Positions 2,060-46,094 of a DNA stretch of 64,000 nucleotides are shown piece by piece. Within the stretch, counting starts at the first letter, position 1, and each line of letters starts with the position of its first letter. The translations under genes and the position numbers were made by a program. The stretch is from Kumtagia ephedrae (lineage in GTDB: Bacteria > Pseudomonadota > Alphaproteobacteria > Rhizobiales > Rhizobiaceae): the NCBI RefSeq assembly GCF_003012745.1, contig NZ_PXYK01000002.1, positions 248,001 to 312,000 on the forward strand. Reading direction: 5' to 3'. A model generated the notes under the pieces. It had not been told where the DNA came from. It saw only the letters and a program-made list of their open reading frames with translations, and ran no database searches.

Positions 2060-2087
2060 CCAACAACCACCAACAGGGAAGCCAGTC

Positions 2088-3077: not shown

Positions 3078-3113
3078 TACCGGTCGGCCCCGTTCGTCGG
3101 GCCAGCTTCCCTC

Positions 3114-3140: not shown

Positions 3141-3159
3141 AAATTCCCAGGACATCGTC

Positions 3160-3978
3160 ATGGATCAGACCGCCAAGACCGCGACTGCCCAGGCCGCCCG
3201 CCCCGAAGTGGAGCGGGACTGGTCCCGCAGCGCGTGGACCTGGGCCAGCTGGATCACACTCGGCATCCTGCTGATCTGGAGCTGGTCGCCGGCAGAGATG
3301 TTCCGCTGGACGTTCCTGGTCAGCGACGCCGGCAACATGGCCGAATATGCCAGCGGCTTCGCGCGCCCCGACTTCTCGCAGTGGCGCTATTACATCGACG
3401 AGATGCTCGTCACCATCCAGATCGCGCTGTGGGGCACCTTCCTCGCCGCGGTCGTCGCCGTCCCCTTCGGCATCCTCTCGGCGCGCAACATCGCGCCCTG
3501 GTACGTCGTCCAGCCGGTCAGGCGCCTGATGGACGCCTGCCGGTCCATCCACGAGCTGGTCTTCGCGGTGCTGTTCGTCGTCGCGGTCGGCCTCGGGCCC
3601 TTCGCCGGCGTGATGGCGCTGTTCGTCCACACCACCGGCATCCTGGCAAAGCTCTTCTCCGAGGCTGTCGAGGCCATCGACGCCCGCCCGGTCGAGGCGA
3701 TCCGCGCCACCGGCGCCTCGCGGCTGCAGGAGGTGGTGTTCGGCGTGGTGCCACAGGTCATGCCGCTGTGGATGTCCTACGCGCTCTACCGCTTCGAATC
3801 CAACGTGCGCGCCGCCACCGTGCTCGGCGTCATCGGGGCCGGCGGCATCGGCCAGGTGCTGTTCGAGTCCATCCGCGGCTTCTACTACCCGCAGGCTTCC
3901 GCCATGCTCATCATCATGCTGGTGACGGTGTCGCTGATCGACCTTTTGTCGCAGCAATTGCGCAAGCTGTTTTTGTGA
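3160..3978 (+). CDS. phnE: PhnE, phosphonate ABC transporter permease
   Basis: 272 residues. The N-terminal 20 residues are hydrophilic and cytoplasmic, followed by about six hydrophobic segments, for example [32 protein letters not shown] and [17 protein letters not shown]. The EAA-type loop that contacts PhnC is seen as [19 protein letters not shown] at about residues 183-201. Many rhizobial operons carry two phnE genes; only one is here, so it may act as a homodimer. The stop overlaps the next start by one base (TGATG). Confidence 0.93.
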
Positions 3979-4682
3979 TGCGCCACGCCCTCTATTTCAC
4001 GCCGGAACCGGACGACGCGCTGACCCGCGCGGCGCAGTCGTGGCTCGGGCGCAGTGCGTTCGCGGTCGAGACGGTCGCCTCCCCCGCGCCGGCCGGTTTC
4101 ACCACCGACGAGTTTCGCCGGGTTACCGGGGAGCCGCGCCGCTATGGCTTCCACGCCACCCTGGTCGCGCCATTCCGCCCGCGAGAGGGCCTTTCGCGGG
4201 AAGCCCTGACAGATGCCGCCGACAGCTTCGCGCAACGCTGCGCGCCCTTCACCATTCCCGCACTGGCGATCACACGGATCGGCGGCTTCTTCGCGCTGAC
4301 GCCGACGGAATCCGACCGTGTCGCGGCCCTGGCATCCGCCGCAGTGGATCATTTCAACGATCTGCGCGCACCGCTGGCGGCGGCGGACATCGAGCGGCGC
4401 CGGCCGGACCGCCTGTCGGAGCGCCAGCGCGCCTATCTCGACCGCTACGGCTATCCCTATGTGAAGGAAGAATTCCGCTTCCATATGACGCTCACCGGTT
4501 CCCTGGAGCCGGAAGTCGCGACCCGGATCGAGCCCGCCCTGCAAAACCATTTCGCGCCGCTGCTCGCGCGGCCGGTCCGGGTCGGCTCGGTCGCGCTGTT
4601 CGTCGAGCCGGAGCCCGGCGCCGATTTCACCGTCCTGTCCACCCACCGTTTCGGCATCGCCGAAGCGAGAAAGTCCGCCTGA
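3978..4682 (+). CDS. DUF1045 phosphonate-operon protein, 2H phosphodiesterase-like
   Basis: 234 residues, starting on the ATG that overlaps the phnE stop. Two H-x-T-L motifs, HATL (in YGFHATLVAPF) and HMTL (in FRFHMTLTGSLE), mark the 2H phosphoesterase superfamily, in which the two histidines act on cyclic phosphates. DUF1045 proteins occur in C-P lyase operons that often lack phnP. A plausible job is opening of the 5-phosphoribosyl 1,2-cyclic phosphate made by the C-P lyase; this is inference from context and motif. No phnP is visible in the window, although it could lie upstream. It is tightly coupled to phnE and phnM. Confidence 0.88.
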   Translation: MRHALYFTPEPDDALTRAAQSWLGRSAFAVETVASPAPAGFTTDEFRRVTGEPRRYGFHATLVAPFRPREGLSREALTDAADSFAQRCAPFTIPALAITRIGGFFALTPTESDRVAALASAAVDHFNDLRAPLAAADIERRRPDRLSERQRAYLDRYGYPYVKEEFRFHMTLTGSLEPEVATRIEPALQNHFAPLLARPVRVGSVALFVEPEPGADFTVLSTHRFGIAEARKSA

Positions 4683-4683
4683 C

Positions 4684-5817
4684 ATGCCGCAAGAGACCGT
4701 TCTCACCAACGCACGGGTCGTCCTCGAGGACGAGGTGATCGCCGGCACCGTCGTCCTGCGTGACGGGATGATCGCGGCGCTCGAAACCGGCGGTGTGGGC
4801 CGCGGCGAAGACATGGACGGCGACTATCTTGTCCCCGGCCTGGTCGAACTGCACACCGATCACCTGGAGTCCCACTACAGCCCCCGGCCGGGCGTGGTCT
4901 GGGAGTCGATCGCAGCGTTGCAGGCGCATGACGCGCAGGTCGCCAGCTCGGGCATCACCACCGTCTTCGACTGCCTGCGTCTCGGCTCCGACGAGGATGA
5001 CGGCTTCGAGCGTGGCGAGATGCGCGCCATAGCCGACGCCATCGAGACGGCGGGAGCTGAAGACCGGTTGCGCGCCAGCCACCTGATCCACCTGCGCTGC
5101 GAAGTGTCGGCAGGCAATGTGCTCGACCATTTCGCGGACTTTCGCGGCGACTCGCAGGTCCGGCTGGCGTCGCTGATGGATCATGCACCCGGCCAGAGGC
5201 AGTTCCAGACACTCGATGCCTATACGCTCTACTACAAGAAGAAGCGCGGCCTGACGGATGTCGAGTTCGAGCGCTTCATCGCCCGCCGTATCGAAGAGTC
5301 GAACCGCTACGCCGCTCCGCATCGCCGCGCCATCGTCGATGCCTGCACGGAGCGCGGCATTGCGATCGCCAGCCATGACGACGCCACCATCGAGCATGTC
5401 GAGGAATCGAAAGCCTTCGGCGTGCGGCTGGCGGAGTTCCCGACAAGCATGGAGGCGGCCAAGGCTTCGCATGAGGCCGGCATGGCCGTGCTGATGGGCG
5501 CGCCCAACGTGGTGCGCGGAAAATCCCATTCCGGCAACATCTCGGCCAAGGCGCTGGCCGACGCCGGCGTGCTCGACGTGCTGTCGTCGGACTACGTGCC
5601 CTTCAGCCTCATCCACGCGCCGTTCGTGCTCGCCGAGGCAGGCATGGTGCTGGCGGAGAGCATCCGCCTGGTGACGGCGACGCCCGCCCGCGCGGTCGGC
5701 CTCGACGACCGCGGCCGCATCGAACCCGGACTGCGCGCCGACCTCGTGCGGGTGCGCCATCGTTCCGGCATCCCGGTCGTGCGATCGGTGTGGCGCGAGG
5801 GCCGGCGCGTTGCGTGA
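4684..5817 (+). CDS. phnM: PhnM, alpha-D-ribose 1-methylphosphonate 5-triphosphate diphosphatase
   Basis: 377 residues of the amidohydrolase superfamily. The metal site is seen as LHTDHLESHYSPRPG at about residues 56-70 and as SHDDATIEHVEE further on. The substrate region MDHAPGQRQF and the late SSDYVP segment are typical PhnM. PhnM removes pyrophosphate from ribose 1-methylphosphonate 5-triphosphate to give the C-P lyase substrate. The ATG lies one base after the upstream stop, and the end overlaps phnN by eight bases, so phnE-DUF1045-phnM-phnN read as one transcript. Confidence 0.95.
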   Translation: MPQETVLTNARVVLEDEVIAGTVVLRDGMIAALETGGVGRGEDMDGDYLVPGLVELHTDHLESHYSPRPGVVWESIAALQAHDAQVASSGITTVFDCLRLGSDEDDGFERGEMRAIADAIETAGAEDRLRASHLIHLRCEVSAGNVLDHFADFRGDSQVRLASLMDHAPGQRQFQTLDAYTLYYKKKRGLTDVEFERFIARRIEESNRYAAPHRRAIVDACTERGIAIASHDDATIEHVEESKAFGVRLAEFPTSMEAAKASHEAGMAVLMGAPNVVRGKSHSGNISAKALADAGVLDVLSSDYVPFSLIHAPFVLAEAGMVLAESIRLVTATPARAVGLDDRGRIEPGLRADLVRVRHRSGIPVVRSVWREGRRVA

Positions 5818-6406
5818 AGGCGCAGCCGATTTGGCACCGCGAGCGCAACACGGTTGCTTGATTGCCGTCGTCGGCCCAAGCGGTGCGGGAAAGGACAGCC
5901 TGATCAATTATGCGCGAGAGAGGCTGCCGGCGGACCCGTCCGTTCTGTTCGTTCGCCGTGTCGTGACGCGCACCGCTCTCGCAGGCGCCGAAGACCACGA
6001 CTCGCTGTCCGTCGCTTCGTTCCAGGCATTGCAGGCGGCAGGCAGGTTCGCGGTGACCTGGGAAGCACACGGGCTGCTTTATGCGATCCCGGCGCATGTG
6101 CGCGAACATCTTGCGTCAGGTGGCGTGGCCGTCGTCAATGGATCGCGCGCGGCATTGCCGGCGATCCGTTCCGTCTTCGGTCGTGTGCTCGCGGTGCACG
6201 TCACCTGCAATCCCGACGTTCTCTCGGTGCGGCTTGCCGCCCGCGGTCGGGAAGACCCGCAACAGCAGCGAAATCGTCTCGCTCGGGCGGCGCTGCCAGG
6301 CGACGATTTGGCCGATGCGATCGAGATCGACAACAGCGACGAACTCGCCACTGCCGGCGACGCACTGGTGACAGCCATACGAACGGCGACTGGGGGCGGC
6401 TTCTGA
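5810..6406 (+). CDS. phnN: PhnN, ribose 1,5-bisphosphate phosphokinase
   Basis: 198 residues with the guanylate-kinase-like P-loop VVGPSGAGKDS at about residues 20-30, the RRVVTRTA segment and the WEAHGLLYAIP substrate loop found in PhnN. It phosphorylates ribose 1,5-bisphosphate to PRPP, the last step that returns the ribose of C-P lyase to metabolism. No ATG is available; the start used is a TTG inside phnM, with another in-frame TTG at 5831. A rare start within the overlap suggests translation coupled to phnM. The operon ends here; the next genes run in the opposite direction. Confidence 0.92.
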   Translation: MREGAADLAPRAQHGCLIAVVGPSGAGKDSLINYARERLPADPSVLFVRRVVTRTALAGAEDHDSLSVASFQALQAAGRFAVTWEAHGLLYAIPAHVREHLASGGVAVVNGSRAALPAIRSVFGRVLAVHVTCNPDVLSVRLAARGREDPQQQRNRLARAALPGDDLADAIEIDNSDELATAGDALVTAIRTATGGGF

Positions 6407-6514
6407 ATGCAGGGCGAACTGCCTCGGGACACCGTTTTGGCGAAAGTGCGCGTTTAATCCGACCTTAAGACGTTCAAGAGTTTGGGCCAATCCCGGCTTC
6501 GGATCGATCCGGGC

Positions 6515-7603
6515 CTAGACGCGATCCTCCAACGTCCCGGACGAGCCGAGAGCTCCCTGAGGTGCTTCAAGCAGCAGCTTCGAATTTTCCGGGCGAGCCT
6601 CCAGGATGCCGCGTTCTATGTCCAGCGCGATCTCGACGACACGCTGGTTTACCGGAGAACTCCGGCCTACCGACCGCAGCTTGTCGACGACGAAGCCGTT
6701 GACCTCGCGAACCTCGGCCCGGCGTCCCTTGCGCCAGTCCTGGAGCGACGTGGTCAAGGTGTCCGGCTGGGAGAACGTCTTCAGCACCTCCTCGAAAATC
6801 TGGTCGACATACCGATCGGGATGATTGCTCATCACCGGCGGCATGCCGATGATCGGGACGATCCTTGCGCCGTCGGCGAGCGCAGCCTGCATCGCCTCGT
6901 AACCGGCGGCCCGCATGACCTCGAGCATGTCCGGCGCCCGCGCGGCATCCGCCAGCGGCAGGTTGACGATGGCGGAAGGGATCAGTTCGGCGGCATTGAC
7001 GACGAGCTTCATCCACTTGGCCGAGACGATGTCCTGCGTCACTTCGACGGTGCCCGAATTGCGAAGCAGGACCGCCACCTCCTCGACCCGCTCCTGCATC
7101 CTGGGATCGAGCGCCCCCAGCGCGAACCATGAGCTGTCATGATCGTTCTGCCTGTTGGTCACGCCGGGAACGAACATGTTGGAGGCGATCTCGATGACCG
7201 CGGCTATGGTGCGGTGGCGCCCCACCACGCTTGCGATGTCCTCATGCGTCATGCCGTTCTGAAGGCCGACGACAAAGCCGTCCGGCGCGAGAACGGGTTC
7301 GATCAGCTGGCACGCCCATTTGGTATCGTAGGCCTTGACGACCAGGAACACGAGATCGAACGGCTCGCGAATTTCAGCCACCTGGCAGAGATGCAGCGCC
7401 GGCACCTTCGCGTTCACTGTGCGGGTCGGCAGATTGACGGTTATGCCGCTGGCCCGGATCGCCTCGACATGCGCCGGCCACTGCTCGATGAACGTGACGT
7501 CCAGCCCGGCGAGGGCGAAGTCGGCGCCGATAGACGCCCCCTGCGCGCCGGTTCCGACAAACGCAATCCTGGGACCGGCTTTGTCTTTCCATGTCATCTG
7601 CAT
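6515..7603 (-). CDS. Ketopantoate reductase family oxidoreductase (copy 1 of tandem pair)
   Basis: 362 residues. The N-terminal Rossmann motif GTGAQG (residues 17-22), the VVKAYDT region and the C-terminal helical domain with SAKWMKLVVNAA fit the ApbA/PanE family, in which the lysine in that segment is catalytic. It is longer than typical PanE (~300), with an extra C-terminal stretch. True PanE function is unlikely: it lies in a catabolic operon beside a close copy (7700-8776), so it probably reduces or oxidises another 2-keto/2-hydroxy acid or related carbonyl with NAD(P). Starts at 7603 and 7597 are both possible. It is the last gene of a three-gene unit with the amidohydrolase. Confidence 0.8.
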   Translation of the reverse strand: MQMTWKDKAGPRIAFVGTGAQGASIGADFALAGLDVTFIEQWPAHVEAIRASGITVNLPTRTVNAKVPALHLCQVAEIREPFDLVFLVVKAYDTKWACQLIEPVLAPDGFVVGLQNGMTHEDIASVVGRHRTIAAVIEIASNMFVPGVTNRQNDHDSSWFALGALDPRMQERVEEVAVLLRNSGTVEVTQDIVSAKWMKLVVNAAELIPSAIVNLPLADAARAPDMLEVMRAAGYEAMQAALADGARIVPIIGMPPVMSNHPDRYVDQIFEEVLKTFSQPDTLTTSLQDWRKGRRAEVREVNGFVVDKLRSVGRSSPVNQRVVEIALDIERGILEARPENSKLLLEAPQGALGSSGTLEDRV

Positions 7604-7699
7604 TTATCCTTGTGGAGGAAGAGTTCAGGCCCGTCGGACGTCCGCCGGCGGCATGACTTGCGCCGGCTGATCAAGCTGGCTCCGAGTGCGAGCAAAGCG

Positions 7700-8776
7700 C
7701 TATTGCAGGTCCCCTGTCAGAAGGCTGCTGTTCGCGATCCCGGCCTGCCTGTCGCCCCGCTCGATCTCGAGCGCCATCGCGACGACCCGCTCGTTCACGG
7801 GCGCCGGCCTGCCGTGCTTGCGTAGCGTCTGCGCGACATGCCCGTTCAGGTCCAGCACCTCGGCCCGCCGGCCCTTTCGCCAGTCCTGCAGCACGGTGGT
7901 CAAGGTGTCGGCCATCATGAATGTGCTGAGCACCTCGTCGAAGATGAGGTCGACATAACGATCGGGGTCGTTCGTCCTCGGCGGCGGCATGCCGAGGATC
8001 GGCACGATGTCTGCCCCGTCGGCCAGAGCCGCGTGCATCGCCTCGTAGCCGGCTGCCCGCATGAGGCGCTCCATGCCCGGCATGCGCACTGCCTCGGCAA
8101 AGGGCAGGTTCAGGATCGCCGAGGGGACAAGCTGGGCCGCATTGACGATCAGCTTCATCCACTTGGCCGAAACGATGTCGTCGCTCACCTCGACGCGGCC
8201 GCTGTCGCGCAGGACGCCGGCGATCTGTTCGACGCGTTCCCGGTTTTCGGGCGCGAGCGGCCCGAGGGCGAACCACGACGTGTCGTGATCGTTCTGGCGG
8301 TTGGTGACGCCGGGCTCGAACATGTTGGACGCCATGTCGAAAACGGCGCCGACACACCTGTTCTCCCCGACGACCGAGGCGATCGCGGTATGCGTCATCC
8401 CGTTCTGCAGGCCGACCACGAGACCGTTAGGTGCCAGCACCGACTCGACCAGCTGGCAGATCCATCTGGTATCGTAGGCCTTGACGACGACGAAGATCAC
8501 GTCGAACGGCTCGCGCAGCTCCGCCACCTGGCACAGATGCAGGGCGCGGACTTTCGCATTGATCGACCGCTTCGGCAGATTGACCGTGATGCCGTTGGCC
8601 CGCATGGCCTCGACGTGGGCAGGCCATTGTTCGATCAGGGTCACGTCCCGCCCCGCCAGCGCCAGATCCGCGCCGATCGAGGCGCCCTGCGCCCCGGTGC
8701 CCACGACGGCTATCTTCAGTTCATCCGTTTTGCGCCACACCGTCTCGATCCGTTTGCTGGCCGGTTGAAATTGCAT
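7700..8776 (-). CDS. Ketopantoate reductase family oxidoreductase (copy 2 of tandem pair)
   Basis: 358 residues, clearly paralogous to the downstream gene: both share GTGAQGASIGAD, DVT-IEQWPAHVEA, LHLCQVAE-REPFD, GLQNGMTH and LQDWRKGRRAEV. By eye about two residues in three are identical. The Rossmann motif and the SAKWMKLIVNAA catalytic segment are intact, so both copies look active. They may act on related intermediates or form a heteromer. It lies 20 bases after the amidohydrolase stop and 96 bases before copy 1. The start at 8776 has a weak ribosome site, and the family-conserved part begins only at about residue 20. Confidence 0.8.
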   Translation of the reverse strand: MQFQPASKRIETVWRKTDELKIAVVGTGAQGASIGADLALAGRDVTLIEQWPAHVEAMRANGITVNLPKRSINAKVRALHLCQVAELREPFDVIFVVVKAYDTRWICQLVESVLAPNGLVVGLQNGMTHTAIASVVGENRCVGAVFDMASNMFEPGVTNRQNDHDTSWFALGPLAPENRERVEQIAGVLRDSGRVEVSDDIVSAKWMKLIVNAAQLVPSAILNLPFAEAVRMPGMERLMRAAGYEAMHAALADGADIVPILGMPPPRTNDPDRYVDLIFDEVLSTFMMADTLTTVLQDWRKGRRAEVLDLNGHVAQTLRKHGRPAPVNERVVAMALEIERGDRQAGIANSSLLTGDLQ

Positions 8777-8796: not shown

Positions 8797-10176
8797 TCAG
8801 ATCGCTCCTTCACGGAGCTGCGTCGGAATGCCGAGCTGCGCGACGATACGACGGCCCGAAGCCTCAAGCTCGCGCTTCACCCTATCCACGTCGCCCCACA
8901 GCAGCCTGCCGTCGCGTTTGCGGAACTTTCCGGCGATCAGAACGTGTTCGACATTGCCGATGCCCGCCTGCATGACGACGGTCGAGTAGGGATCGTGCAC
9001 CGGCGTCATGTTCCAGGCGGCGGCATCGAGAACGACGATGTCGGCCTGCTTGCCCGGTGTCAGCGAGCCGACCTTGTCGTCGATGCCGAGCATGCGCGCG
9101 GTCTCGATGGTAATCCAGCGCAGCGCGTCCTTCGTGCTGACGGAGCAACTGTCCGGAATCCCGCCGTCGATCTCCCGCCTGGCGGCATTGTCCAGCGCAC
9201 GCTGGCAGGCGAGCGCCATGCGGCCCACCGCGAACATGTCCGCGCCGACCACCGACTCGATGTCGACGCCGAAGCTCGGCTGGCCGCCGGCCGCGAGCAC
9301 GCGCCCGGTGATCGGCCTGCCATGGCCCTGCGTCATCTCGTTCTCGGCCGTGACCGTGAAGGAAACGCCGGCCTCGACGAAACGCCTTATCTGGTCGTCG
9401 GTGAGATTGTTGCCGTGGACGATGTTGATGTTGCTGCCGACCAGCCCCTCGGCCTCCAGCGTCTCCCAGCCACCCGGCGTCCTGGCCTGGCCGCCGCCCT
9501 GGTGCATGGAGGCGACCAGGTCCAGTTCCCGCGCCAGGCGGAAGTCGGCGCGCGCCACCTCCATGGTCGAATAATGCGGCCCCAGGATCGCCATGCCGAG
9601 GGTCATGAGTTGGTCGCGGCTGGAGAAGCGCGTGCGCATCAGCCGCTCGATCTCATGGCGGGGATGCGGCACTTCCGAGAAGTGCGGCTCGCCCGGCTTC
9701 GGGTCGGGCTTGGGCGAACCATGCAGGAAGACGGAGCGGATACCGCTCTCGAAGAGCCCGTCGACGGCAGCATCCGTATGCGCCGGCGTCGGGTTGTTGT
9801 GGCACCAGTCGCCGAGCGTGGTCGCGCCCGCATTGATCTGGCCAAGCGCGCCGGCCAGCGTCGCGACATAGATGTCCTCGGGGCGGAAAGCGGCCGCCAG
9901 GCCGCGGTGCACCCAGCGGAAATAGTCCATCAGCGTCATGTTGGAGCAGAGCGAGCGCAATCCGGTCTGCCAGGTATGCATATGGCCGTTCACCAGGCCG
10001 GGGATGACGATGCGGCCACGCCCGTCGACGACCTCGGCTGCGTCCGCGCTCAAGTTGGGACCGACGGCGGCGATCCTTTCTCCTTCAACCAGAACGTCGG
10101 CATCCCGGAAGCTGCCGATGGCGTCGTCCATCGTCAGGACGATCGCGTTCCGGATGAGGATTCCGTGCTGCGTCAT
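8797..10176 (-). CDS. Amidohydrolase-family deaminase/hydrolase (TrzN/AtzA/MtaD-like)
   Basis: 459 residues. The usual layout is visible: beta-sandwich residues at both ends, the metal motif GHMHTWQ (His65, His67), later metal or base positions in MHQGGGQA and IVHGNNL, a C-terminal GSLTPGKQADIVVLD, and a final sandwich strand. This group hydrolyses or deaminates rings and amidines (S-adenosylhomocysteine, guanine, atrazine-like compounds). Here it begins an operon with the two ketopantoate-reductase-like genes, so it may open or deaminate a nitrogen-containing substrate of the island. The substrate is unknown. The upstream divergent gap holds two operator-like sites. Confidence 0.82.
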   Translation of the reverse strand: MTQHGILIRNAIVLTMDDAIGSFRDADVLVEGERIAAVGPNLSADAAEVVDGRGRIVIPGLVNGHMHTWQTGLRSLCSNMTLMDYFRWVHRGLAAAFRPEDIYVATLAGALGQINAGATTLGDWCHNNPTPAHTDAAVDGLFESGIRSVFLHGSPKPDPKPGEPHFSEVPHPRHEIERLMRTRFSSRDQLMTLGMAILGPHYSTMEVARADFRLARELDLVASMHQGGGQARTPGGWETLEAEGLVGSNINIVHGNNLTDDQIRRFVEAGVSFTVTAENEMTQGHGRPITGRVLAAGGQPSFGVDIESVVGADMFAVGRMALACQRALDNAARREIDGGIPDSCSVSTKDALRWITIETARMLGIDDKVGSLTPGKQADIVVLDAAAWNMTPVHDPYSTVVMQAGIGNVEHVLIAGKFRKRDGRLLWGDVDRVKRELEASGRRIVAQLGIPTQLREGAI

Positions 10177-10598
10177 AGTGGGGCTGCGATCTCGCCGAAG
10201 GGCACCAACGCCGGATCGACGTCGAGCCGACGGTCTTGCCGCCGCCCGAACGGAACCCGCCCCGGCTTCCTTCCGGATGCCGGGCCGGCATCCCCGTCTT
10301 CAGCTGCCATCACGACCCGCATCCGGCGCCTCCTCCGGCCTGCCAATGGAAATCGGCGATCATGCGCCTGTCATGTGCGTGATTGTCCGCAGCGCGGATG
10401 AGGGCGCAAGTCGCAAGATTCTCATTACGATCATCGGTTTTTTCATTCTGGGAAAAGTATCGCCGACATTTTCCGCTTCGTTTCCTATCGTTTCGGTGCG
10501 CGAGGCAGCCGGCCGGAACATGCCTGCCCGCTGCGGCGACGGGGTCCGGCGGACCGACCGTCCGTCGGCTGCCCGGATTCTCTGGGAGGAATCGAACG
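10177..10598. other. 422-base divergent promoter region
   Basis: It separates the leftward amidohydrolase operon from the rightward YciI/Gfo operon. No protein gene is supported. The part near 10380-10500 is more AT-rich than its surroundings and holds the two operator-like palindromes listed separately. Confidence 0.6.
10419..10454. promoter_or_regulatory. Paired operator-like sites of the island regulon
   Basis: Site 10419-10433 reads TTCTCA-TTA-CGATCA: one perfect half and one poor half. Site 10440-10454 reads TTTTCA-TTC-TGGGAA, which matches the island consensus TTCTCA-N3-TGAGAA at 10 of 12 positions. Their centres are 21 bases apart, two helical turns. They lie between divergent operons and could control both. 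Confidence 0.45.
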
Positions 10599-13616: not shown

Positions 13617-14336
13617 CTACTGGGCGAGATAGCCGCCATCGACGACGAGCTCGCAGCCGGTGACGAACGACGCCTCGTCGCTCGCCAGGAACAGGCAGCA
13701 ATTCGCCACCTCGGCAGGCGTGCCCATGCGACCCATCGGCGTCTGGCCGATGATGCCGGCGTTCATCTCGTCGGATTGCGCCTCGACCAGCGGCGTGCGG
13801 ATCAGGCCGGGATGCACCGAGTTGACGCGGATGTTCTCCGGCGCGTGGGTCACGGCGGCATTCTTGGTCATGTTGCGAACGCCGCCCTTGGCGGCATTGT
13901 AGGCGGCAGCCCCCGGCACACCCACATTGCCCCAGATCGACGAGAAGTTGACGATCGAGCCCTTGCCGGCCTTGCGCATGGCCGGGATCGCCGCCTTCAT
14001 GCCGAGGAAGGAGCCGGTGAGGTTCACGCCGACCACCTGGTTCCAGTCGTCCAGCGGCGTTTCCAGGATCGGGCCGTAGGCCTTGACGATGCCGGCATTG
14101 TTGACGAGCACGTCGAGCCTGCCATGCTCGGCGACGATCCTGTCGACCGTCGCGACCCAGTCGCTTTCCTTCGACACGTCGAGCATCAGAGGCACGATGT
14201 TCTCGCCGGCGGCGACCGGCTTCACGTCGCCGGCGTAGACGACAGCGCCTTCCCCTGCGAAGCGCTCCGCCACCGCGCGGCCGATGCCCTGCGCGGCGCC
14301 GCTGACGAGCACGATCTTTCCGTCGAGCCTTCCCAT
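13617..14336 (-). CDS. SDR-family oxidoreductase
   Basis: 239 residues of a classical short-chain dehydrogenase: cofactor motif GAAQGIGR near residue 13, NNAG motif, catalytic Ser in NFSSIWG and YNAAK (Tyr-x3-Lys), and the C-terminal VTGCELVVDGG. GGGAGGAAGGA sits directly before the start. It is the first gene of the SDR-cupin-Old Yellow Enzyme unit. Asp at the end of strand 2 (YAGDV) suggests NAD rather than NADP. The substrate is likely a hydroxyl of the island's sugar-like compound. Confidence 0.88.
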   Translation of the reverse strand: MGRLDGKIVLVSGAAQGIGRAVAERFAGEGAVVYAGDVKPVAAGENIVPLMLDVSKESDWVATVDRIVAEHGRLDVLVNNAGIVKAYGPILETPLDDWNQVVGVNLTGSFLGMKAAIPAMRKAGKGSIVNFSSIWGNVGVPGAAAYNAAKGGVRNMTKNAAVTHAPENIRVNSVHPGLIRTPLVEAQSDEMNAGIIGQTPMGRMGTPAEVANCCLFLASDEASFVTGCELVVDGGYLAQ

Positions 14337-14478: not shown

Positions 14479-14493
14479 TGCTCAGATTGAGAA
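14479..14493. promoter_or_regulatory. Operator-like palindrome TGCTCA-GAT-TGAGAA
   Basis: Matches the island consensus TTCTCA-N3-TGAGAA at 11 of 12 positions. It lies 143 bases upstream of the SDR-cupin-Old Yellow Enzyme operon and inside a non-coding gap (14337-14611). Confidence 0.6.
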
Positions 14494-23440: not shown

Positions 23441-24595
23441 CTATTGCGGATAGTCGACCTTGTAGGTCTTCGGGTCGTAGTCCTGGCCCATGCCGCCCGT
23501 GATCAGCATGTCCGCCGGGCCGTCCGGAACCACCATGTCGGTGAGGCGCAGCGGCGTCTGGATCGACTGGGTCTCGTCGCCCTCGGACACGGCGATCTGC
23601 GAGTTGATCGTATAGATGCAGGGCACCGGGGCGCCGGCGAGAACCTGCAGCGCCACCTCGATCGAGATGCCGCCCATGGCCGGCGGATAGCCGACCTCGA
23701 GCATCGGCACCTTGTGCTTGATCGCCATCTGCAGCGGGCCGTTCACGTCCGCCGTGGTGTGCGGCGGAATCTCGCCGTCCTTGTAGCCTGCTTCGATGAA
23801 GGCCTCGATCGAACCGGGGGTCTGAAGGCCGTGCGCCGACCAGACCGCGTTGATGTCCTTGCCGTATTTGGCGATCATCGCCTGCATGACCTGCTTGCCC
23901 TTCACCGGCGACCAGTCGGAATAGACGGTCTCCAGAACCTTGATGCCGGGATACTGCGCGAACACCTCGCGTGCCGGCTTCTCGCGGTTTTCCGACGGGC
24001 TGGAGCCCGCCTGGCCGGCCAGCATGATGACGTTGCCCTTGCCGTTGAGCTTCTCGGCGATCCACTGCGCGAACAGGCGGCCCATCATGGCGTCCGAAGC
24101 GGTGACGAAGGTGACGAAGTCGTCGGAAGCGACACGGCGGTCCATCATCACGACCGGGATGCCCTGGGCCATCGCCTGCTGCACCGCCGGATCCAGCGCC
24201 TGCTGCGTGTTGGCGCTGACGATCAAGAGGTCCACACCGCGCGAGATCAGGTCCTGCATGTCCGCGACCTGCTTGGCATCGTCATGGCCGGCATCGGTGA
24301 TGATCAGCTTGCCGATCTGGTCCTTGTGCCCGGCCGCCGCCTTCTGGAGCGAGTGCAGCATGACGACACGCCAGGAGTCGCCAAGTCCGGCATTGGAGAA
24401 GCCGATCGTGTACGGCCCGTCCTTCTTGTATTCGGAAGTATCCTTGAAGCATACTTCCGTATCTGGGTTGTAGAGATAGGTGCGCGGAGCACCGCTGTAG
24501 AACTTGCTGTCCTGCGCGAACGCAGGGGCCGCGAGCGCCGCAAGTCCTGCCGCGCCGGCCAGCATCATGGCAAAGCGGCGGGTAATATTGGTCAT
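23441..24595 (-). CDS. CUT2-type periplasmic sugar-binding protein (importer 1)
   Basis: 384 residues. Signal peptide MTNITRRFAMMLAG...PAFAQ (Arg-Arg, hydrophobic core, cleavage after AFA). The mature part is a type-I periplasmic binding protein: YTIGFSNAGLGDSWRV, DAGHDDAKQVADMQDLI, RGVDLLIVSANT and MMDRRVASDDFV. GGAGGAG precedes ATG 24595. It is the first gene of a ~10 kb leftward operon (ATPase, two permeases, three dehydrogenases and more). It is a close paralogue of the orphan protein at 39191-40339. The ligand is unknown; family members bind pentoses, polyols or related compounds. Confidence 0.92.
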   Translation of the reverse strand: MTNITRRFAMMLAGAAGLAALAAPAFAQDSKFYSGAPRTYLYNPDTEVCFKDTSEYKKDGPYTIGFSNAGLGDSWRVVMLHSLQKAAAGHKDQIGKLIITDAGHDDAKQVADMQDLISRGVDLLIVSANTQQALDPAVQQAMAQGIPVVMMDRRVASDDFVTFVTASDAMMGRLFAQWIAEKLNGKGNVIMLAGQAGSSPSENREKPAREVFAQYPGIKVLETVYSDWSPVKGKQVMQAMIAKYGKDINAVWSAHGLQTPGSIEAFIEAGYKDGEIPPHTTADVNGPLQMAIKHKVPMLEVGYPPAMGGISIEVALQVLAGAPVPCIYTINSQIAVSEGDETQSIQTPLRLTDMVVPDGPADMLITGGMGQDYDPKTYKVDYPQ

Positions 24596-24757
24596 GTCAG
24601 CTCCTCCGTCTGTGGCTGTGGCACAGCCTTCCCCATCGCGTCCGGCGCATTGCCCGGCGCGTCGATACTGCTCAGTCCGGTCCATTCGACTGGCTGCGCC
24701 CTCCCTGGCGCTAAGTCGAAGAGTTACAGGACTAGCCTTGCGTTCCAACCGGAGAAT

Positions 24758-24772
24758 TTATCATTTTGAGAC
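24758..24772. promoter_or_regulatory. Operator-like palindrome TTATCA-TTT-TGAGAC
   Basis: Matches the island consensus at 10 of 12 positions. It sits 163 bases upstream of the importer 1 operon, in the AT-richer gap between that operon and the PRISE-type gene. Confidence 0.55.
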
Positions 24773-26018: not shown

Positions 26019-26033
26019 GTCTCAGGATGAGAA
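26019..26033. promoter_or_regulatory. Operator-like palindrome GTCTCA-GGA-TGAGAA
   Basis: Matches the island consensus at 11 of 12 positions with a perfect 5-bp inverted repeat. A weaker copy with one good half (TGATAA) lies at 26062-26076, centres 43 bases apart. The sites lie between the divergent PRISE gene and isomerase/SDR operon. Confidence 0.6.
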
Positions 26034-27958: not shown

Positions 27959-27973
27959 CTCTCAAAATGAGCA
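27959..27973. promoter_or_regulatory. Operator-like palindrome CTCTCA-AAA-TGAGCA
   Basis: Matches the island consensus at 10 of 12 positions. It lies 86 bases upstream of the importer 2 binding-protein gene, in the 186-base gap after the SDR. Confidence 0.55.
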
Positions 27974-37700: not shown

Positions 37701-38716
37701 GACCAGCCCCCATCGGCATAGACGTCGGTGGTGAGGATGTCGTCGGGCGCAGGGGGCGACGCCTTGCACGCCTCCGTCGCTTCCTCGACCTTGCGCTTGC
37801 TCTCAGCCTCGATGCCCTTGATCTCCTCCTCCGCTATGCCGAATTCGAGAAGGCGGGCGCGGTAGATTTTTACGGGATCCTTCTCCAGCCATTTCTCCAG
37901 CTCGCCGGCCGGACGATATTTGGCCGGGTCGGCGCGCGAATGGCCGGAATGGCGATAGGTCATGCACTCGATGAGCGTCGGCCCCTCGCCCGCCCTCGCC
38001 TTGCCGAAAGCGGCCAGTGCGGTGCGATAGACCGCATCCGCGTCGTTGCCGTCGATGACGATGCGCTCGAGCCCATAGGCGGAGGCGCGGTCGGCTGCCG
38101 GATGCTCCACCGCGGTGACGTCGCCGATCGGCGTGTATTCCATGTAGAGATTGTTCTCGCAGACGAAGACGACCGGCAGCTTCCAGATGGCGGCGAAGTT
38201 GAGGGCCTCGTGGAAGGCGCCGATATTCGTCGTGCCGTCGCCGAAGAAGCAGACCGATACATCGCTCTCACCCAGATACTGCGCACGCCAGGCGGCGCCG
38301 CACGCAATCGGAAGGTGCGCCCCGATGATGGCGTAGGATCCCATCACGCCGTGCTCGACCGAGGTCAGGTGCATCGATCCGCCCTTGCCGCGCATCAGGC
38401 CGTTGTCGCGCAGCATCAGCTCGCCCAGCACCTTCTCCATGGGAACGCCGCGCGCCAGCGTGTGGGCGTGCCCGCGGTAGGTGCAGAAGGACTTGTCGCC
38501 AGGCCGCATGGCCACCGCCATGCCGGCGGCGATCGCCTCCTGGCCGAGCGACAGATGGCTCGTGCCCTTGATCAGGTTCTGGAAGAACAGGTCGTTGGCG
38601 CGCTTCTCGCAGTCGCGAATCTCAACCTGGAGGCGAAACATCTCGCGTCTGAGATCGGCGCCGATATCGTCGTTTGTCAGGCCTTGCGAGCCTGATCCAT
38701 CTTTCTTCTTTGTCAT
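37688..38716 (-). CDS. 2-oxoacid/acetoin dehydrogenase E1 component, alpha subunit
   Basis: 342 residues. Thiamine diphosphate motif GDGTTNIGAFHEALNFA...ENN, the TYRGHAHTLARG and GKGGSMHL segments, and the phosphorylation-loop-like YRHSGHSRADP. The gene opens a leftward operon of six: E1alpha, E1beta, E2, M24, CobW and hydroxyisobutyrate-like dehydrogenase. No E3 (lipoamide dehydrogenase) is present, so it must borrow one. The short basic N-terminus MTKKKDGSG is not conserved. Operator-like sites lie 62 and 166 bases upstream. Confidence 0.92.
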   Translation of the reverse strand: MTKKKDGSGSQGLTNDDIGADLRREMFRLQVEIRDCEKRANDLFFQNLIKGTSHLSLGQEAIAAGMAVAMRPGDKSFCTYRGHAHTLARGVPMEKVLGELMLRDNGLMRGKGGSMHLTSVEHGVMGSYAIIGAHLPIACGAAWRAQYLGESDVSVCFFGDGTTNIGAFHEALNFAAIWKLPVVFVCENNLYMEYTPIGDVTAVEHPAADRASAYGLERIVIDGNDADAVYRTALAAFGKARAGEGPTLIECMTYRHSGHSRADPAKYRPAGELEKWLEKDPVKIYRARLLEFGIAEEEIKGIEAESKRKVEEATEACKASPPAPDDILTTDVYADGGWSWRN

Positions 38717-38777
38717 CGTGGATCCACCCTAGAGGCCCGACCATGCCAAAGTCGTTCCGGGGAGACACGGCCCAATA

Positions 38778-38792
38778 TTCTCAAAATGGATA
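38778..38792. promoter_or_regulatory. Half-conserved operator-like site TTCTCA-AAA-TGGATA
   Basis: The left half matches the island consensus fully and the right half in three of six positions. It lies 62 bases upstream of the E1alpha start, close to where its promoter should be. Confidence 0.4.
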
Positions 38793-38881
38793 ATTGATTG
38801 CCGGCCAGCCCGGCCTCCGGAAACCTGATGCGACGGGGAACGGACGGGGGCCTTCGAGCCTCTGGCCTCGCATCGCACAAA

Positions 38882-38896
38882 CTCTCAAAATGAGAA
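38882..38896. promoter_or_regulatory. Operator-like palindrome CTCTCA-AAA-TGAGAA
   Basis: Matches the island consensus at 11 of 12 positions. The centre is 104 bases from the weaker site at 38778-38792, and the two lie between the divergent E1/E2 operon and the orphan binding-protein gene. Confidence 0.6.
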
Positions 38897-39190
38897 TTCG
38901 CAGGACTGCACTCTGTTTTGACGGTGTTAGCATCGCCCCTGAATGAGGAGGAGAATTGCCGGTCCCGGCATAACCGGGCGGCGCCATGGGCAAGGGCTTC
39001 AGCTTGAGGAGGCTGACGGCCTACCCGCGGAGGCACGTCGTACATTCCTCCCCGTTCCTTGCTTCTGGTTCGCTCTGCGCGACGGGCTTTGTCCGGCGGT
39101 GTGTTCGATTGTCCGAACGGCAGCGGCCGTCCCGAGCATGAACTGCAAGGATCGCCGGCGGCGACTTGAACAACACGAAGGGAGGAAACG

Positions 39191-40339
39191 ATGAAAGGCA
39201 TGTTGACGAAGAGCGCCCTGCTCGCGGTGCTGATCGCGGGCACGGTCGCTGGCACGAGCCACGCGCAGGAGGCCAAGGAGGGGTACAGCGGCAAGCCGCG
39301 CACCATTCTGTGGGCATCGACCGACATCCAGTATTCCGACACGTCGCAGTTCAAGAAAGACGGGCCCTACGTCATCGGCTTCTCGAACGCCTCGATCTCC
39401 AACGTCTGGCGCGTCGGCCTGCTGCATGCCGTGCAGAAGGCGGCGGCCGACAACAAGGACAAGATCTCCAAGCTGATCATCACCGACGCCAACGACGATG
39501 CGGCCAAGCAGGTATCGGACGTGCAGGACATCCTGCAGCGCGGCGTCGACCTGCTGATCGTGTCGCCGGCGACCGCCCAGGAACTCGATCCCATCGTCAG
39601 CCAGGCAATGGCGCAGGGCGTGCCGGTCGTGCTCGTCGACCGCCGTGTGACTTCCGACAATTTCGTCTCATTCATCACCGCGTCCGACCAGGTGCTTGGC
39701 CGCCTCTACGCGCAGTGGATCGTCGAAAAGCTCAACGGCAAGGGCAATGTCATCATGCTGCCCGGCCTCGCCGGCGCCAGCCCGGCGGAAATCCGCATCG
39801 CCGCCGCCAAGCAGGTCTTCGCCGAATATCCGGACATCAAGATCATCGACATGCAGTACACCGAGTGGAGCCCGGTCAAGGGCAAGCAGGTGATGGCCGC
39901 ACTGCTGCAGAAGCACGGCAAGGCCATCGACGCCGTGTGGTCGGACTCGGGCCTCCAGGCATCGGGTGCGCTCGAGGCCTTTGTCGAGGCCGGGTGGGAA
40001 GACGGCACGATTCCGCCGATCACCTGCGCCGATCTCAACGGCTGCATCAAGCAGGCCGTGCAGCACAAGGTGCCGGTGCTAAACTTCGACTATCCGCCGG
40101 CTATGGGCGGCGTCGCGGTACAGGTTGCGCTCGACGTTCTGGCCGGCAAGCCGGTGCCGAAGATCTATGCGGTGAACTCGGACATCTCGATCTCCAAGGG
40201 CGACGAGACCACGTCGGTCAAGGCCGATCGCTGGGCCGAGGACTATGCGCGGCTGGACAGGTCCAACGATCTGATCCTGTCGACCGGGCTCGGCTCCGAT
40301 TACGATCCGACGACGTTCAAGGTCGACTATCCGCAATGA
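39191..40339 (+). CDS. CUT2-type sugar-binding protein without its own permease
   Basis: 382 residues. Signal peptide MKGMLTKSALLAVLIAG...SHAQ. The mature part is a type-I binding protein that follows the importer 1 protein (23441-24595) along its length: DGPYVIGFSNA, WRVGLLHAVQKAAADNKD, ITDANDDAAKQVSDVQD, RGVDLLIVSPAT, VDRRVTSDNFV and the identical end FKVDYPQ. No ATPase or permease follows, so it probably feeds importer 1 with a second ligand or acts in sensing. GGGAGGAAACG precedes the ATG. The next gene, 353 bases on, is the wHTH-SBP regulator. Confidence 0.92.
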   Translation: MKGMLTKSALLAVLIAGTVAGTSHAQEAKEGYSGKPRTILWASTDIQYSDTSQFKKDGPYVIGFSNASISNVWRVGLLHAVQKAAADNKDKISKLIITDANDDAAKQVSDVQDILQRGVDLLIVSPATAQELDPIVSQAMAQGVPVVLVDRRVTSDNFVSFITASDQVLGRLYAQWIVEKLNGKGNVIMLPGLAGASPAEIRIAAAKQVFAEYPDIKIIDMQYTEWSPVKGKQVMAALLQKHGKAIDAVWSDSGLQASGALEAFVEAGWEDGTIPPITCADLNGCIKQAVQHKVPVLNFDYPPAMGGVAVQVALDVLAGKPVPKIYAVNSDISISKGDETTSVKADRWAEDYARLDRSNDLILSTGLGSDYDPTTFKVDYPQ

Positions 40340-40692: not shown

Positions 40693-42435
40693 ATGATAGT
40701 TTTTCCTGCGGAGGATCACACGTTGCACCGCATGACGGACTATGAGCTGCTGCGCATAATCAATTTCCTCGAGCGCATCCGCACACCATACGACGAGAAG
40801 CTCCGGAATGCCGATCCGGATCCGGTATGGAACATCGTCCTGTTCCTGATGAAGAGCCATCTGCGCGGCGACGTCGTCACCATGTCTTCTCTCGCCCTGG
40901 TGTCGCAAATCCCGTTCGCCAGCGCGATGCGCCGCATCCACCGCCTCATCGAGGACGGCGACATCGAGAAAAGGCAGCGAAATCCGGGCGGCAAATCCTA
41001 CAATCTCGTGCCGAGCCAACGGCTCAAATCGAACTTCATTTCCTATGCGATGAAAGTGAAGGTGCTGCTCGCCGAGACTTTCGGCCTGGGTGCCGGCAAT
41101 GCCAACGTCGACGATTACTATTTCGGCGGCTCCTACATCGTCGACCAGATCATCCCGCCGCTGAAGATCATGGAGAACCGCAATTCGCCGACGCAGGACC
41201 TGCGCTTCCTGCTCAACGACGACAATTATTTCGAAGCCATGCGGAACATGTGGTCGGATTTCCGCAGCAAGCTGTCGTCCCGTAAGAACTTCAAGCTTCT
41301 GGCGTTGCCCGAGCTGCACGAAGAGCTCTTCCGCAACGCCCGGCGCAGGGAAAGCGAATACGACGTCATCTGCATCAACATCCCCTGGCTCGGCGAAGCG
41401 GTAAAGGGCGGGATCGTGCAGCCGCTCGGCGAGTATCTGCGCGACAGCAACCTGAATCCTCTCGATTTCCACCCCAACATCTGGAACACCGGGCATTGGG
41501 GCGGGCAGCAATACGGCGTGCCGATCTATTCCACGATCGAAACGCTCGCCGTGCGCAAGGATCTGTTCGAGCAGCACAAGCTGCATTCGCCCACCACCTT
41601 CGACAAGGTGCTGGAAGCCGGCCGGGCACTGCACAACCCCAAACGCGGCATGCAGGGAATCGTGTGGAACGCGGCGAAAGGCATGCCGGTCGCCCACTCC
41701 TTCATGTTCTTCATGGGCTGCTGCGGGGTGCCGGTGATCAATGCGCCGATGTCGCGCGTCGCCTTCGACTACAACAACATGACCGGCGAAATGTACCGCC
41801 CGCGCGTGCTGAGCGAGCAGGGCTTTCGCACGCTCGACTACATGCGCCAGCTTCTCGCCATCTCGCCGCCCGACATCCTGCTGATGGATTGGAACCGCGC
41901 ACTCGACTGCTTCATGCTGGGCCGCGCGGCAATGATCTACTGCTGGACCATGCGCGCCTCGCGCTTCGAATACGACATCCATTCCGTGGTGAAACGCAAG
42001 GTCGAATACCTGCCGCACCCGCACGGACCAGGGGGTGCGACGGTCAGCCCTATCGGCGGTTTCCTGCTTGCCATCCCCGCCGGCCTGCCGCCGGAGCGGT
42101 CCAAGCTCGCATTCGAGTCGATCTCGTGGATGGCCTCGCCCGCCGCCATGAAGGAGCATGTCAAGAACGGCATTCCGGTCGCACCCCGTTTCTCGGTCAC
42201 CGCGGACCCGGAAGCCGCGGCGACGACGCCGATCGTGCGCTTCGCCGACCGGCTGGCCAAGCAGAACAAGCTGCACACATGGCAGCGCCCGCCGATTCCG
42301 GAATATGCGGTGGTCGAGCACATCCTCGGCGAGGAAATCTTCGCAGCGCTCAACGGCGAGCTGACCGATCGCGAAGCGCTGGAGCGCAGCCAGAATCGAA
42401 TCGACAAGGTGATGCGCGACGCCGACCACTACTGA
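40693..42435 (+). CDS. Winged-helix DNA-binding domain fused to a family-1 solute-binding domain (putative cytoplasmic regulator)
   Basis: 580 residues. No signal peptide or membrane segment is seen. Residues about 40-125 look like a MarR-type winged helix: PVWNIVLFLMKSHLRGD, then a helix-turn-helix (MSSLALVSQIPFASAMRRIHRLIEDG) and a wing (IEKRQRNPGGKSYNL). From about residue 195 the protein has the pattern of extracellular solute-binding family 1 proteins: YDVICINIPWLGEAVKGGIVQPL, YGVPIYSTIETLAVRKDLFE, PTTFDKVLEAGRAL, MLGRAAMIYCWTM, and the C-terminal Glu-Ala-Leu-rich helices. The likely role is a one-component regulator whose solute-binding domain senses an imported compound. GGAGG before ATG 40693 supports this start; ATG 40732 is the alternative. 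It lies next to an orphan binding protein. Confidence 0.8.
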   Translation: MIVFPAEDHTLHRMTDYELLRIINFLERIRTPYDEKLRNADPDPVWNIVLFLMKSHLRGDVVTMSSLALVSQIPFASAMRRIHRLIEDGDIEKRQRNPGGKSYNLVPSQRLKSNFISYAMKVKVLLAETFGLGAGNANVDDYYFGGSYIVDQIIPPLKIMENRNSPTQDLRFLLNDDNYFEAMRNMWSDFRSKLSSRKNFKLLALPELHEELFRNARRRESEYDVICINIPWLGEAVKGGIVQPLGEYLRDSNLNPLDFHPNIWNTGHWGGQQYGVPIYSTIETLAVRKDLFEQHKLHSPTTFDKVLEAGRALHNPKRGMQGIVWNAAKGMPVAHSFMFFMGCCGVPVINAPMSRVAFDYNNMTGEMYRPRVLSEQGFRTLDYMRQLLAISPPDILLMDWNRALDCFMLGRAAMIYCWTMRASRFEYDIHSVVKRKVEYLPHPHGPGGATVSPIGGFLLAIPAGLPPERSKLAFESISWMASPAAMKEHVKNGIPVAPRFSVTADPEAAATTPIVRFADRLAKQNKLHTWQRPPIPEYAVVEHILGEEIFAALNGELTDREALERSQNRIDKVMRDADHY

Positions 42436-44066: not shown

Positions 44067-44337
44067 GACTTATCCTTTGCTCCGTCCTTGGTCTTTCGGG
44101 GACGCCCCCGAGAACCTCAACATGGGTCCGCCGGAGTCAGGCGTTGAGTGCGGAAGCGCGCACATCGGTGGTGCGAAATCGATCCGGCTGCACGACTGAC
44201 GCCAGCTTCAGCGGTCGATGTCCGCTGTTCGGAATTCGGCCGCGCTCGTCGAAATAAAACTATGATGCCCCCGCACCGCGTTTGATGTGTTAGGCACGGG
44301 CTTTGAGAAGGCGCACCCCGCGGTGCGGGATTGCACC

Positions 44338-45234
44338 ATGATCGACTGGGATGACGTTCGCTACTTTCTTGCCGTCGCGCGCGGAGGCTCGGTGCGGTCC
44401 GCCGCCGGGCGCCTCGGGGTGAATCACTCGACGGTGCTGCGACGCATCGCTCAGCTCGAGGAGCGCCTTGGGGCGCACATGTTCGAAAAACTGCCCTCGG
44501 GCTACCGCCTGACGGCTGCAGGCGAGGAGGTCCTGGAGCTCGCGGCCGAGATGGAAGCGTCGTCGCACCAGCTGGAGACGCGCGTCTTCGGTCGCGACCA
44601 GAGCGCGCGCGGGCTTCTGCGGGTGACGCTGCCACCGTTCCTCGCGACACATCTGCTCATGCCGGACTTCGCCGATTTCGCGCGTCTTCATCCGGACATC
44701 GAGATGGAAATCTTGTCCTCCGGCGAGGTGGCGAATCTGACCAACCGAGAGGCCGACGTCGCGATTCGCATCGTCTCGGATCGCAAGACCCTGCCGCTCA
44801 ATCTTCACGGGCTGAAGGGACCGGAGCTGTTCGGCGGCGTCTACATGTCTGGCGATCGACTAGCCGCGTGGCGTGCGGGCGCGCCTGATCCCATCCGGCG
44901 GATCGTCATAAATACTGATGGAATCCCGGACTGGGCCCGCGAGGGTGAGGTTCGTACCACGGGGGTTCCGTTCAGGACCCCGGACGCCGAAGCGCAGATC
45001 GTTGCTGCGCGGCAAGGGATCGGAATCACGAGACTGCCGTGCTTCGTCGGAGATGCCGAGCCCCTATTGGTGAGGGTGCCGGGCACCGGCCTGCGCATCT
45101 ATGGAACGCTCTGGCTTCTCACACAGGGGGAGACACGCAAGACGAAACGCGTGCGGCTCTTCACCGAGTTCGTATCCCGCAGGCTCGCCGGGTACGCGCC
45201 GCTTCTCGCAGGACTATCCACATCGCGCGATTGA
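44338..45234 (+). CDS. LysR-family transcriptional regulator
   Basis: 298 residues. N-terminal winged helix: WDDVRYFLAVARGGSVRSAAGRLGVNHSTVLRRIAQLEERLG at residues 4-45 (AARxLG helix-turn-helix). The effector domain follows with RGLLRVTLPPFLATHLLMPDFADF and ADVAIRI. The ATG at 44338 fits the usual domain start. It is divergent from the SDR and F420-reductase-like genes and probably controls them. The 271-base gap between holds an AT-rich patch near 44245-44265 (TATGAT), a possible promoter; no clear T-N11-A box could be fixed by eye. Confidence 0.9.
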   Translation: MIDWDDVRYFLAVARGGSVRSAAGRLGVNHSTVLRRIAQLEERLGAHMFEKLPSGYRLTAAGEEVLELAAEMEASSHQLETRVFGRDQSARGLLRVTLPPFLATHLLMPDFADFARLHPDIEMEILSSGEVANLTNREADVAIRIVSDRKTLPLNLHGLKGPELFGGVYMSGDRLAAWRAGAPDPIRRIVINTDGIPDWAREGEVRTTGVPFRTPDAEAQIVAARQGIGITRLPCFVGDAEPLLVRVPGTGLRIYGTLWLLTQGETRKTKRVRLFTEFVSRRLAGYAPLLAGLSTSRD

Positions 45235-45345: not shown

Positions 45346-45668
<323 letters not shown>

Positions 45669-45669
<1 letters not shown>

Positions 45670-46094
45670 TGCTTTATCTCGACACGTCGCTGATCGTCGC
45701 GGCGCTCTCCAATGAAGCAATGACGCCGCGCGTTCAAGCCTGGCTGGCGGAGCAGGACGCGGCGCAGCTTCTGATCAGCGACTGGACCATCACCGAGATG
45801 TCTTCGGCCATGGCGATCAAGCTGCGGACCAGCCGGATCAGCCTGGAACAGCGTGCTGCGGCACTTGCCATGTTCAACAAGCTGGTCGCCGAGAGTTTCA
45901 CCGTGCTCGGCGTAACGGGCGGGCAATTCCGGACCGCGGCGAAGTTTGCCGATCGTCACATGCTTGGGCTTCGGGCCGGAGATGCGCTGCATCTCGCCAT
46001 TGCGTCGGAGCATGGCGCCACGGTGCACACGCTCGACCGGCAGCTCGGCGAGGCCGGTCCGGCGCTCGGCGTGCCGACGCGATTGCTGACATGA
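45669..46094 (+). CDS. PIN-domain toxin (VapC-type ribonuclease)
   Basis: 141 residues, single PIN domain. Acidic residues of the active site appear in [10 protein letters not shown] (Asp5), in TITEMSSAM (Glu) and in [12 protein letters not shown] (Asp), followed by the final acidic position in [14 protein letters not shown] toxins cut tRNA or other RNA when free of antitoxin. It is co-translated with the Phd-type antitoxin, one of the common VapC pairings. Confidence 0.92.

Follow-up and report, generated by a model that had tools for sequence, protein, structure and literature searches.

The gene at positions 40732 to 42435 (+) of the 64,000-nucleotide stretch of Kumtagia ephedrae DNA analysed here (hereafter the window) very probably encodes a cytoplasmic one-component transcription factor, in which a non-exported family-1 (MalE-like) domain acts as the sensor for a MarR-like winged helix. 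In other words, what databases label an exported protein for nutrient binding is most likely an intracellular gene switch. The two-domain build and its conservation, the absence of a signal peptide, the conserved neighbourhood and the palindromes that track the clade of the regulator were established by computation.

The open reading frame spanning 40693-42435 (+) comprises 580 codons encoding 580 amino acids. A genome of the same genus has a counterpart that shares 91% identity with it along residues 1-580. The window protein was matched in 22 loci on GTDB contigs, one of them in a Polaromonas MAG, almost over its full length in 21 and up to the contig edge in the last one (L028), and the frame was confirmed as a real gene. 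Met14 (window position 40732) is the likelier start, because the alignment of homologs begins there in most loci and is colinear from this position; the regulator then counts 567 residues, and the 13 residues ahead of it (40693-40731, +), matched in few relatives, represent a possible N-terminal extension. Upstream of the ATG, four codons are open in frame and are followed by two consecutive stops, so that a signal peptide encoded upstream is impossible. In all 15 aligned family members, the first 45 aligned residues were free of strongly hydrophobic stretches, and the best mean hydrophobicity over 11 residues was 1.46 for the N-termini of the family versus 2.6 for the neighbouring solute-binding protein (SBP), which harbors a clear stretch. 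The earlier note had described the protein as devoid of a signal peptide, and this description holds, since the two stops also exclude a secretion signal above the chosen start.

The N-terminus of the window regulator gave no HTH match in Pfam, and sequence profiles recognised the domain weakly in the family: MarR_2 was found in 9 of 19 N-termini (best E-value 3.4e-6) and TrmB HTH gave weak matches in 4 of the 19. When the 125 N-terminal residues were modelled alone (AF2, 19 sequences), the model reached a pLDDT of 89 and displayed a helix, a helix-turn-helix, a two-strand wing and a long helix. Comparison of this model with the PDB by Foldseek placed AspA at the top (E-value 1e-3), and MarR-family proteins predominated among the best 50 of 1418 matches, with modest E-values of 1e-3 to 2e-2 within these 50. 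On the basis of the model, the Foldseek matches and the MarR_2 hits, the MarR-like winged helix and its linker helix were assigned to positions 40822-41082 (+). Numbered from Met14, the elements include helices 31-45, 51-57 and 62-74, the wing 78-94 and the helix 96-116. Arg67 in the recognition helix and Pro94 after the wing are kept in all 62 regulators (window included) that share the two-domain build and align colinearly. The MarR-like winged helix that had been proposed ahead of the SBP domain from the letters of the sequence is thus supported by structure prediction, which returned a DNA-binding fold of the MarR type at the N-terminus. Regarding the occurrence of this part of the protein, its profile matched 27 of 398 genomes of the phylum. 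In three profile matches that were inspected (L058, L061 and L071), the winged helix makes up the C-terminal portion of a different alphaproteobacterial protein, in one case following a response-regulator receiver domain.

Positions 41206-42432 (+) encode a family-1 solute-binding domain of the type II, MalE-like fold. Pfam identified SBP_bac_1 in the window regulator (E-value 3e-22, residues 222-487), with SBP_bac_8 also matched, and SBP_bac_1 was found in 15/15 aligned family members. The full-length, alignment-based AlphaFold model, obtained from 15 sequences, is only moderate (pLDDT 78, pTM 0.72), with the pLDDT dropping below 50 in segments of the linker and within residues 474-497. Compared with the PDB, it matched the complete family-1 SBPs 5iai, 4rya and 1eu8 with TM-scores of 0.75-0.81 normalised on target length, and a sequence search of the PDB likewise paired the C-terminal part with family-1 binding proteins. 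These Pfam and fold matches bear out the complete domain claimed earlier. Since type II folds are able to act as scaffolds, the protein could be a transcription factor whose SBP domain binds no ligand and serves for dimerisation or for a protein contact, for instance with a transporter. We regard this as unlikely: the SBP part is the best conserved of the protein, with a mean of 0.59 versus 0.50 for residues 1-125, and the motifs WLGE, YGxPxY, WTMRA and GGF are among those invariant in 15/15 aligned members.

As a regulator that would sense its ligand through the SBP domain, the window protein resembles SgrR from E. coli and DsvR, both transcription factors in which an N-terminal HTH is fused to a type II solute-binding domain. 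DsvR from Vibrio cholerae combines an N-terminal HTH with SBP_bac5, as outlined in PMC13060122. The domains themselves are different, SgrR consisting of SgrR_N and SBP_bac_5, whereas the window family consists of a MarR-like winged helix and SBP_bac_1. E. coli SgrR matches SgrR_N (PF12793) at 2e-43; the same domain was found neither in 19 family N-termini (E-value up to 10) nor in 15 full members (E-value up to 1). The SBP_bac_5 domain of SgrR and DsvR was likewise missing from the window family, SBP_bac_1 and SBP_bac_8 being matched instead, and profile comparison with SgrR gave a probability of 0.3%, revealing no sequence relation. Where SgrR is accompanied by sgrS, sgrT and setA, the protein neighbours observed for the window family are ABC transporter and dehydrogenase genes. 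Judged from these domain assignments, the window family would work like SgrR in principle without being a member of its family, and what appears new relative to SgrR and DsvR is that a known HTH-SBP principle is built from other families in both domains.

The other known regulators of similar design also differ from the window family. MarR proteins are stand-alone small proteins (~140 aa) with a helical dimer interface and ligand sites inside the small fold, whereas the window family has a separate 400-residue sensor domain. In LysR-type regulators, a winged helix precedes an effector domain that resembles type II periplasmic binding proteins but belongs to another family, and neither HTH_1 nor LysR_substrate was detected by Pfam in the window regulator or in 15 members. 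The LacI family couples an HTH to a binding-protein-like sensor for sugar operons, this sensor being of type I fold, while that of the window family is of type II fold, family 1. The archaeal sugar regulators TrmB, which control sugar ABC transporters, are cytoplasmic and combine a winged helix with a C-terminal sugar-binding domain of another fold. A GntR-SBP_bac_1 fusion may exist in Firmicutes. No description of an SBP_bac_1-HTH regulator appeared in the titles and abstract openings of the papers listed by the literature searches, among which few subscription papers were represented; passages of PMC3901232 and PMC13060122 were also covered.

A palindrome, TTCTCA-N3-TGAGAA, was derived by reading the intergenic regions of the 36-kb island to which the regulator belongs. 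MarR operators are themselves palindromic. All six window sites that match at least 10 of the 12 positions, to which no strand is assigned, fall within 10.4-38.9 kb and lie 5' of genes on the chosen start codons. The first (38882-38896, 11/12) is upstream of the SBP gene at 39191, the gene before the regulator; the second (27959-27973, 10/12) is upstream of the SBP gene of the second ABC transporter, within the longest open reading frame of that gene and upstream of the start judged likelier; the third (26019-26033, 11/12) separates divergent PRISE-like SDR and sugar isomerase-like genes. The remaining three precede the first ABC transporter operon (24758-24772, 10/12; SBP gene 23441-24748, -), an SDR gene (14479-14493, 11/12; gene 13617-14336, -) and an amidohydrolase gene (10440-10454, 10/12; gene 8797-10176, -). 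A weaker site (38778-38792, 9/12) lies upstream of the divergent E1 dehydrogenase operon. Over the whole genome (6.11 Mb), 42 places were found with up to two mismatches versus 17 for the reversed control, and the island holds six of the 42, about 0.25 being expected by length, including three of the four best. Within the window by itself, the half-site pattern with up to two mismatches showed no enrichment (12 versus a shuffle mean of 19), so the case for the palindrome rests on other genomes, which are also its real test because the motif was taken from the island itself. Searches for perfect palindromes and direct repeats across 6-43 kb returned mostly GC-rich chance matches and coding repeats. 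An island-type palindrome located outside the island, at C10:78104-78118 of G000, carries two mismatches (ATCTCAAAATGAGAC) and marks a possible further member of the regulon.

In other genomes, the presence of the palindrome followed the type of regulator. Sites of at least 11/12 were found in 9/9 loci with window-like regulators (L021-L029, 66-82% identical, four of them being related Mesorhizobium loci) versus 0/32 loci with more distant regulators (578 kb), while in shuffles a mean of 0.25 of the nine window-like loci reached this score. L020, left out of this test because its regulator is 91% identical, also has an 11/12 site. Other clades have their own palindromes with a 3-nt spacer. Upstream of the Rhizobium-type regulators L032-L034, the palindrome is GTCCA-N3-TGGAC, which also occurs before the ATPase operon in L032 and L033, the sequence of L034 ending earlier. 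In the Rhodobacterales loci (L035-L041, 7/7), a conserved TCTCCG-N3-CGGAGA-like element of 10-12/12 lies within the divergent promoter region of the regulator's operon, at ~1.04-1.05 kb above the regulator gene. A large second clade displays ATATYCA-N3-TGRATAT, in most cases 45-230 bp ahead of the regulator gene, and sites of the ATATCCA type (at least 12/14) were present in 12/13 second-clade loci versus 1/11 window-like loci, 1/12 in L030-L041 (the Rhizobium/Rhodobacterales side) and 3/7 among the remaining distant ones. In three ~1.4 Mb genomes with a regulator (L087, L088 and L089), a perfect ATATTCA-N3-TGAATAT precedes the regulator and recurs ~4.85 kb away before a second operon; the adjoining genes resemble inositol catabolism, judged on sequence starts.

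The loci were further analysed with a strict YCA-N3-TGR core, itself found by inspecting a set of 29 loci. This core was present in 10 of the 29, compared with a shuffle mean of 0.48 (maximum 4, 500 runs) and a mean of 0.56 (maximum 3) for random windows of the same loci. The set omitted the window as well as L020, L024, L033, L036, L088 and L089, each being either a near-duplicate or the source, and never took in L023, L025 and L037-L041, near relatives of included loci. When all cores and spacers were ranked on it, CCA/TCA with a 3-nt spacer came 1st of 2592. Among 27 loci fetched later (L092-L120 minus L099, already used, and L114, truncated), the strict core occurred in 6 (shuffle mean 0.39, maximum 3); the single CCA was not the commonest core there, some GC-rich cores being equally frequent. 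On the same 27 loci, the ATATCCA consensus reached p<=0.05 in 19, of which 13 also passed p<=0.005 (with 200 shuffles for each), a comparison that is not fully blind because the consensus was written after the strict core result on them had been seen. Some of the sites in these 19 loci are imperfect, and the YCA-N3-TGR core is absent from those of L095, L101 and L105.

In a tree of the 62 regulators, each of the four operator labels corresponds to one side of a fully supported branch. The labels were our own assignment and leave 21 rows unlabelled, including L090, L095, L098, L101, L105 and L118, which have p<=0.05. Once these six rows were labelled, the ATATYCA type needed two changes instead of one, the other types remained single, and the clustering of operators on the tree was still far beyond shuffles. 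L092 and L093 had been labelled TCTCCG by clade; a 10/12 element was then found at the expected place in both, and the count was repeated without them. This co-variation of operator and regulator clade provides indirect support for DNA binding by the regulator, and the co-occurrence in 9/9 window-like loci strengthens the earlier suggestion that it reads the repeated palindrome.

It is quite improbable that the palindrome is read by another regulator co-occurring with the islands. A LysR gene does lie at 44287-45234, and no such palindrome was found within 450 bp upstream of the window regulator, the nearest one lying 1.85 kb upstream, in front of the adjacent SBP gene. However, many loci have sites ~45-400 bp upstream of the gene encoding the winged helix and SBP domain, the type of palindrome shifts with the clade of this regulator, and the LysR gene was unmatched in all 42 loci (tblastn, 1e-20). 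In addition, the 45 largest neighbour clusters, from sequence starts only, revealed GntR-like proteins in 3 loci and LysR-like proteins in 2, with no other recurrent HTH recognised. Within the island, Pfam scans of 36 reading frames at thresholds from 1e-5 to 1 detected no further HTH domain, five of these frames, probably spurious, giving no match whatever. At this sensitivity, the protein stands as the only obvious regulator of 6.5-42.4 kb, as the earlier note had it.

With the winged-helix protein as the reader of these sites, the following mechanism may be proposed. A dimer would sit on TTCTCA-N3-TGAGAA with one recognition helix per half-site. The ligand, presumably a sugar, polyol or cyclitol taken up by the cell or else one of its early products, would be met in the cytoplasm and would close the two lobes of the SBP domain, altering the dimer. 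This would in turn switch the operons that encode ABC uptake, the dehydrogenases and the E1/E2 complex. No sigma-70-type promoter was found at 38600-39300 against which the position of the sites could indicate the sign of regulation; our guess, leaning slightly to one side, is that the ligand derepresses rather than activates.

Regulators of this build are spread over Alphaproteobacteria and rare beyond. They were present in 11/101 genomes of relatives and 8/385 genomes of the class of the window (own genome counted in both), in 24/149 genomes of one family within this class, and in 1/229 genomes of a different class, that of G601. We consider it probable that they form an undescribed one-component family, in which a MalE-type family-1 SBP moved from the periplasm to the cytoplasm independently of SgrR, LysR and LacI, which accompanies sugar/cyclitol catabolic islands, both plasmid-borne and in genomes as small as 1.4 Mb, and whose recognition helix co-evolved with at least four operator half-sites in a shared 3-nt-spaced palindrome. 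Such a family would be concealed by its database name, 'extracellular solute-binding protein', and its recognition would allow operators and regulons to be predicted for many catabolic islands. It would also offer a clear test case for how the closure of a Venus flytrap can drive a winged helix, and would provide biosensor design with ready-made fusions of a MalE-like sensor to a regulator.

Regarding the gene neighbourhood, the island includes two ABC transporters (SBP genes 23441 and 27942) and a third SBP gene adjoining the regulator (39191-40339, +; Peripla_BP_4, E-value 2e-51). Pfam scans confirmed that the three SBPs are of type I fold. The third had been called an orphan, and it is indeed a duplicate without an adjacent ATPase or permease of its own, but 'paralog' describes it better than 'orphan' because it is 60% identical, across 352 residues, to the SBP encoded at 23441-24748 (-). 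Neighbours were counted in 42 regulator loci by tblastn at 1e-20 with the island's own proteins as queries. An ABC ATPase like that of the island was found in 32 loci and an island-like dehydrogenase in 37; an ABC part and a dehydrogenase occurred together in 31/42, and in 29/37 among the loci of at least 15 kb. The colinear homologs are mostly located beside dehydrogenase genes and a sugar ABC transporter whose binding protein is of type I fold. The island-like proteins also comprised SDR (26 loci), M24-type (21), E1 alpha (18), Zn-dehydrogenase (17), 3-hydroxyisobutyrate-dehydrogenase-like (16) and Gfo/Idh-like (15) proteins, while window-like SBPs and permeases passed the threshold in only 7/42. 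No island-like ABC part was detected at 1e-20 in nine of the 42 loci, six of these nine being at least 15 kb; L021, L027, L034, L072, L073 and L074 lack one by this search. The tblastn counts were used instead of neighbour clustering, which had fused spurious antisense frames into the SBP cluster (L020, L024, L072 and L080). Gene calls around the other loci, made by a simple codon-usage picker, have rough boundaries and are partly on the wrong strand in L020 and L024.

The neighbour SBPs of six other loci were all Peripla_BP_4 (6/6 scanned), and BPD_transp_2 was identified in 2/2 window permeases and 4/4 scanned from other loci, so that no MalF/MalG-type permease, the cognate partner of a family-1 extracellular SBP, was seen in the window or the scanned loci. 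The regulator family has the SBP_bac_1 fold in common with such extracellular proteins, but neither their signal peptide nor a lipoprotein signal. The possibility that the protein is, as annotated, the periplasmic SBP of an ABC transporter with an odd N-terminus agrees with its complete SBP fold and with the names in plasmid records (32 records with the regulator; of 30 examined for names, 25 read 'extracellular solute-binding protein', one 'ABC-type sugar transport system, periplasmic component' and four none), yet it is extremely improbable given that no signal peptide is encodable, that 125 conserved N-terminal residues are predicted as a winged helix and that the adjacent transporters, where scanned, have type I SBPs and BPD_transp_2 permeases.

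Annotation of the plasmids from Phaeobacter and Pacificitalea gives, in this order, ThuA, an NAD(P) oxidoreductase, an ABC ATPase, a pair of permeases, an SDR and an SBP. Divergent from the SBP are the regulator, SDR, Xaa-Pro peptidase-like, E1 alpha, E1 beta, lipoyl protein, aldehyde dehydrogenase and E2 genes; E3 is annotated on the Phaeobacter plasmid too, the Pacificitalea stretch stopping after E2. In the window, 6515-8776 (-) contains two tandem ketopantoate-reductase-like genes with a DNA identity of 72-75%, apparently a tandem duplication, and 45382-46094 (+) a small gene pair whose translations resemble a prevent-host-death antitoxin and a PIN-domain toxin. On the plasmid of Rhizobium sp. 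WL3 (L124), positions 1973-8541 near the regulator encode a maleylacetate reductase, an intradiol ring-cleavage dioxygenase, Gfo/Idh and Zn-dehydrogenases, a set that may point to the conversion of a cyclic polyol into an aromatic of the hydroxyquinol type.
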